DNA from: Stenotrophomonas raiganjensis (SeqCode)
GTDB lineage: Bacteria > Pseudomonadota > Gammaproteobacteria > Xanthomonadales > Xanthomonadaceae
Reading direction: 5' to 3'
DNA length: 64,000 nucleotides
Assembly (NCBI RefSeq): GCF_030658505.1
Contig: NZ_JAUTXR010000192.1
Span: 1-64,000, forward strand
The notes under the pieces were generated by a model. That model was not told the origin of the DNA. It saw nothing but the letters and a program-made list of their open reading frames with translations, and searched no databases. Made by a program: the position numbers and the translations under genes. This document shows positions 6,645 to 16,042 of the stretch, in pieces (position 1 is the first letter of the stretch; each line of letters opens with the position of its first letter).

Positions 6645-6681
6645 GCCGGGGTCAGATTCCCGTAGGGGCTCTGACCCCGGC
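6645..6681. repeat. GGTCAGA palindromic repeat
   Basis: A perfect 12-bp stem GCCGGGGTCAGA/TCTGACCCCGGC closes a 13-base loop containing CCCGTAGGGG. The same sequence family recurs at 10159-10185 and 11983-12011, so it is a dispersed repeat rather than a one-off terminator. Confidence 0.75.
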
Positions 6682-8972: not shown

Positions 8973-10088
8973 TCAGTCCGCCGCATTCCCCGCCGCGCCC
9001 ATGCCATCCACCGCCTGCCGGCCCAGTGCCGGGTCATCGGTGAAGAAGGCATCGATGCCGGTGGCCAGGTAGGCACGCATTTCGGCGATCGATCCCTCCG
9101 CATTGCGCGCGTTGTCGGCGCCCTTGCGCAGATTGCTGGCCTGGAAGTGGTTTTCCGGGCGGAAGGTGTACGGGATCACCATCAGGCCCACCGCATGTGC
9201 ATCGCGCACCAGCGAGGTCGGCGTACCCAGGGCCCCCTTGTCATCCAGCGGAATGATCGAGCGCAGCTCCGGGCCGATGCTGTCGGCATAGGTGGCGATG
9301 TCCTTCAGCCCGGCCGGGGTCATCATCTGCGCGTAGGTCAGCGTGCCACCGGCCTTGGCGATGTCGGCCGGCTGGGTGTCGCCCTTCCACAGCAGCTGCA
9401 GCAGGCGGATGTTGCTGCCACGCGGGATCCTGCCGCGCAGGTAACGCAGGTTGGCGGTCTCGAACGACTGGATGGTGACCGGGCCGACGTTGGTATAGGC
9501 ATTGCCACGCAGCGCGGCCAGCAGCTTGTCTTCCATCGGCAGGCCGATCGACTGGAAGTAGGTCGGGTGCTTGATCTCCGGCACCAGGCCGATGCCGCGG
9601 TTGGCGCGGCCGGCCTGCTGCACCAGGAACGCGAGGATCTCGTCCAGGCTGGCGATGCGGAACTGGCCGTCATACGCGGTGCTGCGCAGTTCCGGCAGGC
9701 GCTCCCGCGCGTACAGGGTCTTCAGCTCGGCCAGGGTGAAGTCTTCGGTGAACCAGCCGTCGACCTTCTGCCCGTCGATGACCTTGCTGGTGCGGCGGCT
9801 GGCAAACTCCGGATGCGAAGCGACGTCGGTGGTGCCACCGATCTCGTTCTCGTGGCGGGCCACCATCACCCCGTCCTTGGTCATCACCAGGTCCGGTTCG
9901 ATGTAGTCGGCGCCATCGGCGATCGCCTGGGCGTAGGCCGCCAGGGTGTGCTCCGGCAACAGCGCGCTTGCGCCGCGATGGCCGTAGACCGACACCTTGT
10001 GCGCGGCCGGGGTAGAGGATTCAGCACTCATGGCCACCGATGGTGCCACGGCCAGCGACAACAGCAACGCACAACCCCACAACTTCAC
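8973..10088 (-). CDS. glpQ: Periplasmic glycerophosphodiester phosphodiesterase
   Basis: It hydrolyses glycerophosphodiesters to glycerol-3-phosphate and alcohols in the periplasm. The N-terminus MKLWGCALLLSLAVAPSVAMSA is a signal peptide. The catalytic set is present: HRGA (His37-Arg38), the metal ligands in IEPDL (Glu64, Asp66) and ARHE (His79); LVPEIKHP and FTDDPA follow as in other GDPD proteins. The GTG at 10088, preceded by GGGGAAGTC, is chosen because sequence farther upstream is a palindromic repeat. Length is about 371 residues, normal for GlpQ. Confidence 0.9.
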   Translation of the reverse strand: MKLWGCALLLSLAVAPSVAMSAESSTPAAHKVSVYGHRGASALLPEHTLAAYAQAIADGADYIEPDLVMTKDGVMVARHENEIGGTTDVASHPEFASRRTSKVIDGQKVDGWFTEDFTLAELKTLYARERLPELRSTAYDGQFRIASLDEILAFLVQQAGRANRGIGLVPEIKHPTYFQSIGLPMEDKLLAALRGNAYTNVGPVTIQSFETANLRYLRGRIPRGSNIRLLQLLWKGDTQPADIAKAGGTLTYAQMMTPAGLKDIATYADSIGPELRSIIPLDDKGALGTPTSLVRDAHAVGLMVIPYTFRPENHFQASNLRKGADNARNAEGSIAEMRAYLATGIDAFFTDDPALGRQAVDGMGAAGNAAD

Positions 10089-10158
10089 TGCGACTTCCCC
10101 AAGCGGTATGTGATGGGCGTCAGTATGCGGCGGCAATGTGACAGGTGGGGGACCTGAG

Positions 10159-10185
10159 GGTCGGCCCCCCGAAGGGGCTCCGACC
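10159..10185. repeat. GGTCAGA-family palindrome, left flank of accessory cassette
   Basis: Stem GGTCGG/CCGACC with an inner CCCC-GAA-GGGG hairpin. It shares CCCGAAGGGGCTC.GACC with the reverse complement of the palindrome at 11983-12011. The two bracket the Beta/sce7726 genes in inverted orientation. Confidence 0.6.
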
Positions 10186-10281
10186 TGACCGCCCCCCATT
10201 CTTCAAACAATTCTGATTGAAGCGCTGCACGGCCCGCGGCTAGCCTCGAATGACCAACAGCGAAGTTGTCAGGGGCAGATC

Positions 10282-11376
10282 GTGGAACAACCAATGTACA
10301 TGCCGATTCTCAAATGGCGGCAGGGGGAGTATCTCGCGGTGGGTCGTACCAGCGAAGGAGTCAAGGATGGGATCTATCCCCTGTTCGAGATCCCGATCGA
10401 GCAGTGGGACTTCGAGAACGATGCACCGGCCAAGTCACTCGATGACCACCTGAAGAAGGTAGGCAGACGTCTGAGCAGCAACTGGAAGGCGCGGCGCTGC
10501 CTGTTCGATTCGCCCTATCTTGCCGGGGACGACACCATGGCGGACGGCCAGCACCATCTGGAGCGGATCTTCGACCTCACTCGGACCGCGGGATGCCAGG
10601 CCATTCCCGTGACCGGCATTGACCGGCATGTCGACTACCAGCAGGCGGTGGCACGCATCGTCGCCCGCGATGATCGTGGCTGCGGACTACGGCTGGTGCC
10701 GGATGATCTTGAAGGAGGGCGCCTGGCCCGGATCTCGGGGTTGCTGAAACTGTTGGGCGTGGTACCGGGTCAGGTGGACCTGATCCTCGACAGCTCGGCC
10801 GATGTCGCCGACTCGCCCACGCTGCAGGCATCGACCTGGCAGGCATGGATTGCGGCGGTTCCGGATCTGGCCGACTGGAGATCGATCACCCTCGTCGGGG
10901 GTAGTTTCCCTGCCAGTCTGAGTCCCTCTTCGAGCTATCGCCCACATGGCGATGTGAACCGCCGGGAATGGCGCGCGTACTGGCGGCTAGCCCGCATGCA
11001 CTCTGGACGAATGCCGTGGTTTGGTGACTATGGCTGCGCTTCTCCGCAGACGGAATTGATGGATCCGCGCCTGTTCGACCCCAACGCCAAGATCAAGTAC
11101 ACGATCGATGATCAGTGGCGGATCGTTGTAGGTACCCAGATCAAGCGCAACGGCCGCGACCAGTACCGCGATCTGTGCCGGCACGTGGTCTCCGATCTAC
11201 CGGTGGTCTTCATGGGGCGCGGCTACAGCTGGGGCGATGCCTACATCGAGGACTGCGCAAACAGTGTCACCAGTACCGGGGGAAGCTCGACCTGGCCAAC
11301 GGTAGCGACCAACCACCATATGACTAAGGTTGTTCGCGACCTCGCCAGTCTGTCCGGCGCTTCAACTGTTCCCTGA
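10282..11376 (+). CDS. Beta family protein (uncharacterised; pairs with sce7726)
   Basis: A 364-residue protein of the Beta family. Diagnostic phrases are MPILKWRQGEYLAV (residues 7-20), IYPLFEIP (31-38), and the conserved C-terminal GYSWGDAYI (314-322) and STWPTVATNHH (336-346). Strand-like segments ending in acidic residues (VDLILDSSAD, SITLVGG, IVVGTQ) suggest a barrel-like fold, which is inference. There is no signal peptide. The GTG start at 10282 has AGGGG with a six-base spacer. It converges on and overlaps by 53 bp the sce7726-type gene. Proteins of this type usually travel with sce7726 proteins; the biochemical role is unknown. Confidence 0.8.
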   Translation: MEQPMYMPILKWRQGEYLAVGRTSEGVKDGIYPLFEIPIEQWDFENDAPAKSLDDHLKKVGRRLSSNWKARRCLFDSPYLAGDDTMADGQHHLERIFDLTRTAGCQAIPVTGIDRHVDYQQAVARIVARDDRGCGLRLVPDDLEGGRLARISGLLKLLGVVPGQVDLILDSSADVADSPTLQASTWQAWIAAVPDLADWRSITLVGGSFPASLSPSSSYRPHGDVNRREWRAYWRLARMHSGRMPWFGDYGCASPQTELMDPRLFDPNAKIKYTIDDQWRIVVGTQIKRNGRDQYRDLCRHVVSDLPVVFMGRGYSWGDAYIEDCANSVTSTGGSSTWPTVATNHHMTKVVRDLASLSGASTVP

Positions 11377-11911
11377 CCAACGTACGGATTTCCGCAAGAC
11401 TGTAGAGCTCCGACAGGCGTTCACATAGCGCTGCGCGGTTGCCGCGCAGCGCTGATTTTTCAGGTGTCCGCCCGCCGATCAGAGCAGAAATTTCATCGCG
11501 CCAGAGGAGTGCTGCGACGGCCGTCGCGCTCACTGATGGATTGAGTTTTGCAGGCCGCACCAGTTCCAGCCTCACTGCGTTGCGCGCTCCACGTGATGCC
11601 AGCCTCACCCCCCACCATGCAGGCAACGTCTCTAGGGCATGGTCCAGATGGCGCTGGCCCACTACGATCGTCGCCTTGTCGAGGACATCGGAGTAGAACT
11701 GCTGCTGCAATGGGAGTCTCCGCAGCGTGTCGACATCACTCTTGATCTCGTAGCCGTGCAGATGGCCATTGATGACACATACATCGACCCGGCAGGCGCC
11801 GCGCGCAAGCCCCATCTCCTCCACGACAAGCGTGTTCGGATTTGCGACATGCTCAGCAATGACCTTGCCCAGCAGAGCTGATCGCACGTCACTGTCGGTT
11901 ATCGGGTTCAT
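11324..11911 (-). CDS. sce7726 family protein, PD-(D/E)XK nuclease-like
   Basis: A 195-residue protein matching the sce7726 family pattern: VVEEMGL (29-35), RVDVCVINGHLHGYEIKSD (41-59), then DTLRRLPLQQQFYSDVLD. Asp43 ... Glu55-x-Lys57 followed by the Gln/Tyr helix (69-73) is the arrangement of a PD-(D/E)XK nuclease core, with TIVVGQRH as the next strand and PAWWGV typical of the family. Nuclease activity is inferred from motif only. The 3' end overlaps the Beta gene tail-to-tail. The ATG at 11911 lacks a clear ribosome binding site. Confidence 0.8.
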   Translation of the reverse strand: MNPITDSDVRSALLGKVIAEHVANPNTLVVEEMGLARGACRVDVCVINGHLHGYEIKSDVDTLRRLPLQQQFYSDVLDKATIVVGQRHLDHALETLPAWWGVRLASRGARNAVRLELVRPAKLNPSVSATAVAALLWRDEISALIGGRTPEKSALRGNRAALCERLSELYSLAEIRTLVREQLKRRTDWRGREQP

Positions 11912-11982
11912 GGCGGGATGATATCAAGGAGGTGTCGCGCATAGGGTTGAAACCCCGTGCCGTCAGTCATGAGTAAACGAGA

Positions 11983-12011
11983 CGGTCAGAGCCCCTTCGG
12001 GAATCTGACCG
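11983..12011. repeat. GGTCAGA-family palindrome, right flank of accessory cassette
   Basis: Stem CGGTCAGA/TCTGACCG around GCCCCTTCGGGAA, six bases before the mnmE stop codon. Inverse relative of 10159-10185 and 6645-6681. It may also end mnmE transcription. Confidence 0.7.
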
Positions 12012-12016
12012 CGGTC

Positions 12017-13366
12017 TTACTTGCCGATGCAGAAGCTGGAGAAGATCCTGCCCAGAAGGTCGTCGGCACTCATCTGCCCGGTGATCTCGCCCAGCGCATC
12101 ATGCGCCAGCCGTAGTTCCTCTGCCGCCAGCTCCAGGTGTTCATGCGCCAGCTCGCCATCAGCGCGCTGCGCATGTTCCTGTGCACGTTCGATTGCATCC
12201 ACATGCCGCGTGCGCGCGGAGAACTCGCCGTCCACCTGCTCGCCTGCCCCGGCCGAGGCAATCGAACGCAGGCGCGCATGCAGATCGTCCAGCCCGGCGC
12301 CGGTGGCGGCCGAAACGAACAAGCGATCCGGATCGTCCAGCGTCGGCAGCGCCGTCAGAAGATCCGACTTGTTGTGGATGTAGACCTTGTGCGGCACCGC
12401 CGCCACGGCATCGCCCAGCGCCGCTTCACCCGCAGCCGGATCGCACGCATCCAGCACGATCAGCGCCAGGTCGGTGCGCTCGATTTCCACGTGCGCGCGG
12501 CGCATGCCCTCACGTTCGATGGCGTCGCCGCCGTCGCGCAGTCCGGCGGTGTCGACCAGGGTCAGTTCCAGGCCATCCAGGCGGATGGTCTCGCGCAGGG
12601 TGTCGCGGGTGGTGCCGGCGATGTCGGTGACGATGGCGCGTTCGCTGCCGGCCAGCGCATTGAGCAGTGAGCTCTTGCCTGCATTCGGCGGGCCGATCAG
12701 CACCGCATGCAGCCCGTCACGCAGGCGACGACCGCGTTCGGCGTCGCGACGCAGCAGGGCCAGATCACTGCGCGCCTGCTCCAGCCCACGCCGCACCTGC
12801 GCACCGCCAAGGGTATCCAGCGGTTCGTCGGCGAAGTCGATGGCCGCTTCCACGTGGATGCGCAGCAGCACCAGCTGCTCGACCACGGCGTCGATGCGCC
12901 GCGAGAACACACCATCCAGCGAACGTCGCGCGGCGCGTGCGGCGCGGTTGTCGCCGGCCGCGATCAGGTCGGCGATGGCCTCGGCCTGGGCCAGGTCCAG
13001 CTTGCCGTTGAGGAAGGCGCGTTCGCTGAACTCACCGGGCCGCGCCTGGCGCGCACCGAGCGCGATGCAGCGCGCGACCAGTTGCTGCAGCAGTACCGGA
13101 CTGCCGTGGCCCTGCAGTTCCACCACTTCTTCGCCGGTGAAGCTGTTCGGTGCCGGGAACCACAGCACGATGCCATCGTCGATGACCTCGCCGTCGGCGT
13201 CGCGCAGCCGCGCATAGTGCGCGTGGCGCGGCCGCAGCACGGGCGCGCCCAGCGTGTTGGCGATCACCGCAGCGCGCGGGCCGGACAGGCGCAGCAGGCC
13301 GACACCGCCGGCGCCCGGCGCACTGGCAATCGCCACGATGGTGTCGGTGCGGATCGCGTCATTCAT
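12017..13366 (-). CDS. mnmE: tRNA modification GTPase MnmE
   Basis: With MnmG, MnmE installs (carboxymethyl)aminomethyl groups on U34 of certain tRNAs. The 449-residue product starts [20 protein letters not shown] (formyl-THF-binding N-domain), has a GTPase domain inside the helical domain with GPPNAGKSS (G1), IAGTTRD (G2), DTAGLRD (G3) and NKSD (G4), and ends with the essential CIGK. It lies three bases downstream of the deacetylase-metacaspase gene on the same strand, so co-transcription is likely. Length and motifs are canonical. Confidence 0.97.
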
Positions 13367-13369
13367 GGC

Positions 13370-16042
13370 TCAGAGCTTCTCCAGCTGCGCGCGCGCCTGC
13401 GCCGCGCCGCTGCCCTGCGGCTGCAGCGCCAGGTAAGTGGTGTAGGCCTGCTTCGCCTTGGGCTTGTCGCCCGCGTTGAAGTAGGCGTCGCCCAGATTCA
13501 GATAGGCCACGGCACGCGAGGGGTCGATCTTCAGCGTGTTCTCCAGCCAGCGCGCGGCTTCGGCATAGCGCTGCTGGCGGTAGTAGACGAAGCCGAGGTT
13601 GTTGGCGGCCTGGGCGAAGTCGGGGCGCAGCTTCAGCGCCTCGGTGAACTGCGCCGCCGCCTCGTCGTACTGCTTCTCGCGGTACAGCTGCAGGCCACGG
13701 TCGTTGGCCTGCTGCGCGCGCTGGCGGTCCGACGCCGGGCCGGCGGTGGGCACCACCAGCTTGGCCTTGCCGCCCTGCAGGTCGGCCACCGTCACCGGTG
13801 CCTGGCTGCCCTTGGCGTCGCTGGCGGCCTCGACCTTGTTGTTCAGTGCGATCGCATCGGCGGTCAGCTGGCGCGTATCGGCGTTGAGGAACTCCTGGCT
13901 GTCCGGCACCTGGAACACGAACTCGCCGCCCTGCGAACCGGGGAGGCTGCCGAAGGCCGGGGTCTGGTGCGAGACCGCCGACACCGCCGGCGCGACGTAG
14001 GCGGCCAGCTCGGTACCGGTGATCAGGCCGTCGCCGTTGAGGTCACCCTTGCCGGCCAGCGCCTGCAGCAGCACCCAGGTGAACACCGAATGGCCGTTCG
14101 GGCCGGCATCGGCCACCTGCTGGTCGGCGCCACCGGCGGTCAGCATCTGCCGCGCGATGCGCCGCGCGTTCTCGCGCAGAAACGACGACGACGACGGGCC
14201 GCCACGGGTCAGGCCAAGCCCGCTGTAGCAGGCATCCATCACGAACATCACGTGCTTGGCCTGCATGCTTTCGGCGATGTTCTGGATGTCGGTCATCGCA
14301 ATCGCATCGGTGGCGAATTCCTTGGGATCCGAATCCACCGGGATGATGTAGCCCAGATCGCGCCCGGAGGCGAGCTGGCGGGTGGCACCGTGACCGGCGA
14401 AGAACACGAACACGCGGTCGTTCTTTCCAGTACGGTCGTCGGCCAGGCGATCGTGGAAGGCCGCGAGGATGTTGTTGCGCGTGGCCTGCTCGTTCTTCAG
14501 CACGATCACCTGCGAGGACGGGAAGCCGAACTGCCCGGTCAGGGTGTCGGCCACCGCCTGTGCGTCGTGGCTGGCGTACTCCAGCTTCGGCCACTTGGCG
14601 TAATTGTCGATGCCGACCACGATCGCCCACGACTTCTCGTAGCCGGTGGTGACGGTGGCGGCACCGGTGTCGCCCTTGCGCGCGCGCGCAACGGTGAAGT
14701 CGCGGCCGTTCCAGCCGGCGAACTGGTAGCCATCGGCAATCAGGCGGTCGAGGATCTGCGGCAGCGCTTTCACCGCACGATCGTGGATATCGTGGAACAG
14801 GATGATGCCGCGCTGTTCCTTGTTCACCTGGTCGAGCACGCGCTGCACGATCGACTCCGGTACCGGATCGGCCCAGTCCATCGAGTCGATGTTCCACATG
14901 ATCGACTTCAGCCCGGCCTCGTTGAGCAGCTGCAGGCCTTCGGCATTGCGCGCGCCGTACGGGAAGCGGAACAGCGGCGCGCGCTTGCTGTCGACATCCT
15001 TCAGCAGCGTGTCGGTGTCGAGTACCTGCTGGCGCAGCGCGTCGCCGGTGGTGCGCGACAGCTGAGCGTGGGTCAGGCTGTGGTTGCCGACCGCATAGCC
15101 TTCTTCCATCAGGTTGCGGCTGATCTTCGCCATCGGGCCGAGGCTGACCTTGCCGTCGGCCTCGACCTTGCCCAGGTTGCGGCCCACTTCGAAGAATACG
15201 CCCGGCACGTCGTAGCGCTTGAGGATGGCCACCACTTCATCGGTATAGGCCTTGTGCGGGCCATCGTCGAAGGTCAGCACCACGGTCTTGGCCGGCAGGT
15301 CGCGGCCGAAGATCTCGCGGTCGCTGTCCTTCATCGACATCGGGTACGGCTCGATCACGCCATAGTCGCGCAGGATCGCTTCGCGGCTGTAGTCCTTGTG
15401 CAGGTGGGCGATGTAGTCGCCCCACTTCTCGCGCTTCAGTTCGATGGCGCGGGTGCGTTCGAAGCGGCTGAAGATGCGGGTCAGTTCCTGGTTGTAGTTG
15501 CGCTCGATCTCGTCGAGCGCCTCCAGGTCTTCACCGATACGCTGGTGCAGTTTCACCGCCGGCAGTGAGGAATCGGTGCCGACCCGCTCATGCAGATCAC
15601 GCAGCACTTCGCGGAAGGCCAGGCGATCGGCGTCGAACAGTTCCGGCGCCGACTCGACGTAATCCAGCACGGTGCCGAGGGTGGCGAAGCGCTGCGGACT
15701 GGAACCGCGCAGCAGAGTGTCGAACTGCGCGGCGATGGCCGTGCGCTGTTCCAGGCCATCGTGGAACAGCTGCTGGCCCACACGCGTGGAGGTGCCGCGG
15801 TCGGCGGCCGACTGCTGCTCCTCGTCGGCCAGCAGCACGATGATCCGGCGGTAGCCATCAAGCTGCTTCTGCAGTGCTGCCAGCAACGGCGCAGCGGCGG
15901 GATCGGCGGCGGCGGCGGCCTGCGCGCTGGGCTGGGTGACGGTGGTCGCCGGTGCCTTCGCATCCTTGTCGCCACAGCCGGCAACGACCAGGGTCAACAA
16001 CAGCGAGGGCAGGAACAGGCGGAACGACGACGCACGCGGCAT
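13370..16042 (-). CDS. Lipoprotein fusing polysaccharide deacetylase, metacaspase (C14) and TPR domains
   Basis: An 890-residue predicted lipoprotein (lipobox ending at Cys23, LVVAGC). Residues 50-225 are helical. A NodB-type deacetylase follows (about 250-445), with TFDDGPH (257-263, Asp259/Asp260), HSLTH (321-325), RFPYGARN (359-366) and LFHDIH (415-420). A caspase/metacaspase domain (about 468-710) has VGIDNY, the catalytic His551 in AGHG and Cys605 in DACYSG. It contains a full EF-hand loop, Asp667-x-Asn-x-Asp671-Gly-x-Ile-x3-Glu678. Three TPRs close the protein (about 775-885). It sits between yidC and mnmE and probably has its own promoter, since a terminator separates it from yidC. The joint role is unknown. 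Confidence 0.9.
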   Translation of the reverse strand: MPRASSFRLFLPSLLLTLVVAGCGDKDAKAPATTVTQPSAQAAAAADPAAAPLLAALQKQLDGYRRIIVLLADEEQQSAADRGTSTRVGQQLFHDGLEQRTAIAAQFDTLLRGSSPQRFATLGTVLDYVESAPELFDADRLAFREVLRDLHERVGTDSSLPAVKLHQRIGEDLEALDEIERNYNQELTRIFSRFERTRAIELKREKWGDYIAHLHKDYSREAILRDYGVIEPYPMSMKDSDREIFGRDLPAKTVVLTFDDGPHKAYTDEVVAILKRYDVPGVFFEVGRNLGKVEADGKVSLGPMAKISRNLMEEGYAVGNHSLTHAQLSRTTGDALRQQVLDTDTLLKDVDSKRAPLFRFPYGARNAEGLQLLNEAGLKSIMWNIDSMDWADPVPESIVQRVLDQVNKEQRGIILFHDIHDRAVKALPQILDRLIADGYQFAGWNGRDFTVARARKGDTGAATVTTGYEKSWAIVVGIDNYAKWPKLEYASHDAQAVADTLTGQFGFPSSQVIVLKNEQATRNNILAAFHDRLADDRTGKNDRVFVFFAGHGATRQLASGRDLGYIIPVDSDPKEFATDAIAMTDIQNIAESMQAKHVMFVMDACYSGLGLTRGGPSSSSFLRENARRIARQMLTAGGADQQVADAGPNGHSVFTWVLLQALAGKGDLNGDGLITGTELAAYVAPAVSAVSHQTPAFGSLPGSQGGEFVFQVPDSQEFLNADTRQLTADAIALNNKVEAASDAKGSQAPVTVADLQGGKAKLVVPTAGPASDRQRAQQANDRGLQLYREKQYDEAAAQFTEALKLRPDFAQAANNLGFVYYRQQRYAEAARWLENTLKIDPSRAVAYLNLGDAYFNAGDKPKAKQAYTTYLALQPQGSGAAQARAQLEKL

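Follow-up and report, generated by a model that had tools for sequence, protein, structure and literature searches.

The 64,000-nucleotide stretch of Stenotrophomonas raiganjensis analysed here (assembly GCF_030658505.1, contig NZ_JAUTXR010000192.1, positions 1 to 64,000; hereafter the window) carries two facing genes, gene A (Beta family) and gene B (sce7726/cII family). By their sequence these genes are a mobile two-gene cassette, kin to the anti-phage system of P4 and devoid of its toxin gene. The cassette lies between two genes that we take to be glpQ-like and mnmE (trmE). A first-pass annotation had described two convergent open reading frames (ORFs) with a 53-nt 3' overlap, and their coordinates and strands stand as claimed. 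We give about an even chance to the reading that the pair is a mobile anti-phage cassette of the Beta/cII kind, in which gene B would be a nuclease effector and Beta its regulator or a sensor.

Gene B is a member of the sce7726 family (NF033832, 165.5 bits for an NCBI cut-off of 70) and matches the PADLOC 'cll' model at 3.4e-28. The cII protein of P4 matches the same model at 3.2e-113 and scores 151.4 bits against NF033832, above the cut-off; its NC_001609 annotation is likewise sce7726. The residues D43 and E55-x-K57, which had been proposed as a PD-(D/E)XK core, are at the positions given for them. They show no variation among 28 aligned sequences, the window and P4 cII included, nor among the 42 sequences of a second set that includes the window. 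The predicted fold agrees with this proposal, as restriction-endonuclease-like folds rank at the top when the AlphaFold2 model (pLDDT 93.1, pTM 0.88) is compared with known structures. Gene B resembles the small PD-(D/E)XK nucleases (3dnx, VRR_NUC, Can2/Card1 nuclease domains) in its predicted core fold and D...ExK motif, at a low identity (4-21% among the matches listed). From the motif and the core alpha-beta fold of a confident model, gene B is assigned to the PD-(D/E)XK superfamily and is likely a nuclease; P4 cII would thereby gain a likely enzymatic identity. The best structural neighbour is 3dnx, which we take to be MmcB-like, and the gene is found near lysis or integrase genes in several phage genomes. 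Both observations suit a DNA-repair or recombination accessory, a 3dnx-like cII that would process replication or phage DNA and not serve defence. The patchy and horizontally exchanged distribution described below, the near-constant Beta partner and a site shared with restriction systems argue against such a role, which we consider very improbable.

Gene A matches PF14350 (Beta_protein) over its full length (2.7e-80, 270.9 bits, gathering cut-off 27), so that both family assignments of the first-pass annotation are upheld. Its closest model in PADLOC is PD-Lambda-2_C (4.8e-52), with a weak match to the P4 'beta' model (7.5e-6). The predicted structure is a triosephosphate isomerase (TIM)-like barrel, and all 40 sequences compared, window included, share five residues (D170, R227, D249, W338 and H346), of which D170 and D249 are placed at barrel strand ends by the model. 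These residues lend weight to an anti-phage system in which Beta, as an enzyme or a ligand-binding TIM barrel, would be the effector or trigger, and cII would be regulatory or act on a signal. The same could be said of the Betas that occur without sce7726 beside XRE-ImmA genes, and of PD-lambda-2C, needed for defence in a three-gene system that the accessible text of its source describes without cII (Vassallo et al. 2022, PMC9519451). However, cII keeps its full catalytic motif in all 28 aligned sequences, which would be needless for a purely regulatory protein, and the Beta barrel model is about equally like many unrelated TIM enzymes. We therefore hold a Beta effector to be unlikely.

The first-pass annotation had called the system uncharacterised, a label that no longer applies, since gene B groups with P4 cII and gene A with PD-Lambda-2_C, and the related gop-beta-cII and PD-lambda-2 systems act against phages. 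According to the accessible parts of Rousset et al. 2022 (PMC9122126), which cites Ghisotti 1990 on Gop-Beta-cII, gop-beta-cII confers protection from lambda and P1, and gop becomes toxic when beta is missing. In those of Vassallo et al. 2022 (PMC9519451), PD-lambda-2 acts against phages, its C component being needed for defence and not for toxin neutralisation. By analogy with these systems, we infer defence by the window pair. As in P4, where beta (651-1718, +) faces cII (1746-2540, -), the Beta and cII members of the window are adjacent and convergent, with the same invariant cII motif. In contrast, P4 has gop in front of beta, its two genes are separated by a 27-nt gap with no overlap, and its cII has 264 aa versus 195 aa for gene B. 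No gop is present upstream of the window Beta, where less than 200 bp separate it from the glpQ start region, too small a space for a 133-aa gene. Likewise, there is no room upstream for the HigB-like A or XRE-ImmA B gene of PD-lambda-2, and the window has the cII nuclease-like gene instead. Beta and cII thus make up a stand-alone two-gene unit here, from which Gop, the toxin behind the name of the system, is missing.

Such upstream genes were counted in loci whose Beta exceeds 300 aa and which offer 700 bp or more of sequence in front of it. Of these 131 loci, 28 have a peptidase gene of the ImmA/IrrE type upstream, recognised by phmmer (E < 1e-4 to seeds, two of the matches being weak) and in most cases of the XRE-ImmA kind known from PD-lambda-2B; these 28 loci represent 13 of 42 clusters. 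The other 29 clusters have no ImmA/IrrE-type peptidase upstream, like the window, and may hold upstream genes of other types. A Sinorhizobium plasmid combines Beta and a convergent cII with an XRE gene like that of PD-lambda-2B. When the upstream state is mapped, as we labelled it, onto a tree of 56 Betas, a minimum of 7 changes is required, and the tree places Burkholderia and Variovorax pairs without an upstream module nearest to the window (long-branch warnings). At one locus (L125, 6879-7277), a small protein with a GS...D.D stretch, presumably nucleotidyltransferase-like, occupies the PD-lambda-2A slot.

Relatives of the pair occur on plasmids, prophages and satellites. Together with the toxicity of gop without beta (accessible text of PMC9122126), this would suit a selfish module for addiction or competition, akin to toxin-antitoxin pairs, which keeps mobile DNA stable and affects phages only as a by-product. 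However, the window copy is a chromosomal cassette of two genes with no further gene between its neighbours, its site is empty in most close genomes (see below), and the tested relatives give phage protection in the accessible parts of PMC9519451 and PMC9122126. An addiction module is thus distinctly unlikely in our opinion.

The facing layout, often with overlap, recurs in bacteria and phages of many phyla. We kept 80 of 276 relatives from genome contigs, of which 75 are followed by 400 bp or more of sequence, and 80 of 126 from viral contigs, of which 77 leave room downstream. The sets have some contigs in common and contain many near-copies; their loci were found by window-like patterns. 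A convergent Beta was found in 74 of the 75 genome loci and 76 of the 77 viral loci with room. An unbiased sample of 398 genomes, taken evenly from the phylum, gave 14 sce7726 loci over the cut-off (5 further genomes scored below it), 11 with a convergent Beta and 3 with a co-directional sce7725-like gene (one of these three was checked against NF033831). The recurrent pairing of the two families, already put forward from the sequence, is therefore borne out. Trees with named loci span 11 phylum-level labels, some of them from metagenome bins.

Measured by longest ORF, the two genes overlap in 68 genome loci and 74 viral loci. Beta is split in three genome loci, where its tail overlaps by 44, 44 and 47 nt (L162, L180 and L197, respectively), and in one viral locus (L239, 11 nt), while the pairs L172, L187 and L202 of the genome set and L248 of the viral set do not overlap. 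The overlap length equals 2 modulo 3 in 144 out of 144 longest-ORF overlaps (69 from genomes and 75 from viral contigs; each set includes one locus with short downstream sequence). Because of the window-like search patterns and of shared descent, these are not independent events; after clustering at 60% identity, the overlap was found in 42 of 47 clusters, and the phase agrees in all 42. A fixed phase was rejected as a universal rule, since 9 of the 11 phylum-sample pairs overlap and 6 of these 9 are in the common phase, the exceptions being overlaps of 4, 21 and 135 nt, and two pairs have no overlap. One genus copy (G004) also shows a 4-nt overlap in another phase. This convergence and the single antisense phase of the window-like overlaps, variable in distant pairs, are new: among the matches listed in literature searches that covered few subscription journals, there was no account of a Beta-cII gene overlap.

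The conserved sce7726 end VRxxLKxRxxWR is largely encoded within the overlap in most cluster representatives, opposite the Beta end NHHxTxVxxxLAxL; the shortest overlaps cover just the last residues of the sce7726 end. A similar HH motif was found at the C-terminus of 5 out of 6 lone Betas whose C-terminus was available (fragment L118 excluded), and the motif is therefore Beta's own. The 53-nt overlap is kept in 7 of 7 Stenotrophomonas copies at the glpQ-mnmE site. Its divergence among these copies is 0.049 of nucleotide pairs, compared with 0.077-0.296 for 31 consecutive 53-nt tiles of the cassette. Kept at this length in every copy at this site and less divergent than any tile, the overlap is not due to chance. 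As a background, none of 6 convergent protein-gene pairs overlap in 50 kb of E. coli K-12 (by eye; pseudogenes and a non-coding RNA excluded). We offer for study this long-kept antisense overlap inside a probable defence cassette.

Among 91 genomes of the genus, sce7726 was found in 10, Beta in 10 and both in 9, adjacent and convergent each time. The genome G002 carries a long sce7726 followed by a co-directional sce7725-like gene, and G035 a lone Beta. Present in just 9 of 91 genomes, the pair is not a universal core gene, which agrees with the accessory insertion that the first-pass annotation had thought plausible at this place. The neighbours fit a conserved position in the genus, the left one being present in 87 and the right one in 90 of the 91 genomes. 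Seven of the nine pairs lie between them; one of these seven, G062, is at the edge of a contig, and the end of this contig agrees, as judged by eye, with the glpQ contig. In 43 genomes, window included, whose mnmE shares 93% or more identity with that of the window, the junction is empty in 34 (71-317 bp between the anchors used), holds the pair in 7 and a 314-aa BRCT/TerB-like gene in 2 (L049 333-1277 and L055 202-1146), one of these two proteins showing a weak match to PADLOC PDC-S48.

Cassette distances follow mnmE distances poorly (r = 0.66 over 21 pairs, 0.14 without G020). Between G000 and G015, the cassette differs by 3.4% vs. 8.7% for mnmE, and between G039 and G090 by 20% vs. 6.4%. 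Moreover, the GC content is 0.60-0.63 in the cassette and 0.68-0.70 in mnmE. The poor fit and the GC gap point to horizontal exchange at one place. Both 'sce7726' and 'beta' appear among the strain-specific loci listed in the accessible part of a study including Stenotrophomonas (PMC13414232), in agreement with accessory status. In addition, a close copy of a prophage two-gene form was found in 93 of 5426 E. coli genomes, which makes direct tests in E. coli K-12 possible.

We also looked at the junction in 44 further genomes with both neighbours. RhuM occupies it in 3 of them and a YhcG PDDEXK nuclease in 2; one genome has a type I restriction-modification island with SIR2 and Mrr-like genes, and another a helix-turn-helix-methyltransferase gene with AzlC (the loci with restriction-modification/SIR2/Mrr, YhcG or RhuM are L086, L063, L065, L080, L291 and L292). 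An ABC ATPase gene, in at least 6 of the 44 (one scanned, five by the same N-terminus), looks like the normal junction content of its clade; the remaining junctions are short or left unclassified. The Stenotrophomonas glpQ-mnmE junction is thus a candidate defence hotspot of the genus and a place to seek further defence genes. The pair that is nearest on the tree outside Stenotrophomonas, in Burkholderia anthina (L134, 4408-7980), also lies on the 3' side of mnmE, in the opposite orientation, by coincidence or by a shared insertion preference. The mnmE 3' end is a known site for SGI1-type islands, according to the accessible text of PMC8409611. An integrase-driven island was rejected here: within 9501-13500, the 18-bp end of mnmE is not repeated on the other side of the pair, its sole other match in this interval having 5 mismatches and lying beyond mnmE at 13419. 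No integrase fits between the two neighbours, the interval to which that search was limited, the rest of the window not being scanned.

Beta is common to gop-beta-cII, PD-lambda-2 and the window pair, and a nuclease is the sole recognisable catalytic effector in the latter, which suggests that cII cuts and Beta controls. The sce7726/cII protein would most likely be the DNA-cutting effector, which the TIM-like barrel of Beta would bind and restrain until Beta senses infection or a phage-made ligand and releases it. Convergence and 53 nt of antisense coding may lock the genes into one transferable unit, and the opposed mRNAs could damp each other until infection alters transcription. As a speculative extension, to which we give little weight, the toxin-less Beta-cII would be the basic free-standing immune module of many phyla, with Gop or ImmA modules added or lost, and the antisense overlap would be functional, coupling the mRNAs so that nuclease and keeper are balanced and then released when a phage disturbs transcription.

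Several observations weigh against a Beta/cII defence cassette. The named toxin is Gop in P4 (PMC9122126) and the toxic component is B in PD-lambda-2 (PMC9519451), i.e. neither Beta nor cII in the accessible text of both sources. In the tree of 56 Betas (long-branch warnings), P4 Beta groups away from the window Beta, within a starred clade. Profile searches of solved structures (PDB) with both proteins, and Foldseek alone with the gene B model, gave no match at E <= 0.001. No Beta was found in two loci with room, L182 (genome) and L247 (viral), apparently one contig. Furthermore, sce7726 also pairs with another partner, sce7725: these pairs share the sce7726 domain and motif with gene B, whereas their genes are co-directional and their sce7726 protein is longer (295-350 aa in four loci). 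At 24 distant loci, 104 out of the 121 flanking ORFs were scanned with PADLOC and Pfam, and the defence matches were scattered, 7 members being of the linked PD-Lambda-2_B type and the other models listed (25 of 47) matching one to four members each; with no control set, no defence-island enrichment can be claimed. Finally, the same literature searches showed, among the matches listed, no defence test of a gop-less Beta-cII pair.

Between sce7725 and Beta, we found a weak N-terminal likeness (hhalign probability 18.6, 60 columns). The co-directional sce7725-like/sce7726 architecture was seen at L088, L090, L091 and L084. DUF6932 matches 4 of the 104 scanned flanking ORFs.

Table 1. Coordinates of the cassette, its parts and its neighbours in the window.
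Feature	Coordinates	Strand	Remarks
Gene A, Beta-family protein, 364 aa	10282..11376	+	GTG start; predicted TIM-like barrel
Gene B, sce7726/cII-family PD-(D/E)XK nuclease-like protein, 195 aa	11324..11911	-	ATG start; NF033832, PADLOC 'cll', AlphaFold2
Convergent coding overlap, 53 nt	11324..11376		Conserved C-terminal residues of both proteins
Gene B motif codons D43 (11783-11785), E55 (11747-11749), K57 (11741-11743)	11741..11785	-	Read from sequence
Probable Beta promoter: TTGAAG, 18-bp spacer, TAGCCT	10217..10246	+	Putative, by eye
Dyad CCAACA...GTTG between promoter and start codon	10254..10268	+	Possible operator or leader hairpin
Left 27-bp palindrome	10159..10185		Similar ones at many empty sites
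Right 27-bp palindrome	11984..12010		Similar ones at many empty sites
Left neighbour, presumably glpQ-like	8973..10199	-	True start may lie downstream of 10199
Right neighbour, presumably mnmE (trmE)	12017..13366	-

The TTGA and TAGCCT elements of the probable promoter are conserved in all 7 of the upstream regions aligned. Relatives support the Beta start, as the six remaining Stenotrophomonas copies have ATG or GTG at the aligned position. Compared with shuffles, RNA hairpins were not retained in the promoter-leader (z -0.51), the left palindrome (z -0.80) or the right palindrome (z -2.45). A related 27-bp palindrome lies at 6650-6676, in addition to the two that bracket the cassette. Dispersed-repeat transposition was rejected: the flanking palindromes have one and two draft-genome matches (<= 3 mismatches), and the term 'abundant repetitive extragenic palindromic (REP) element' was therefore dropped. 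Directly beyond mnmE, an 890-aa protein (13370-16042, -) combines a polysaccharide deacetylase, a caspase (Peptidase_C14) and TPR repeats, which looks like an unusual fusion.
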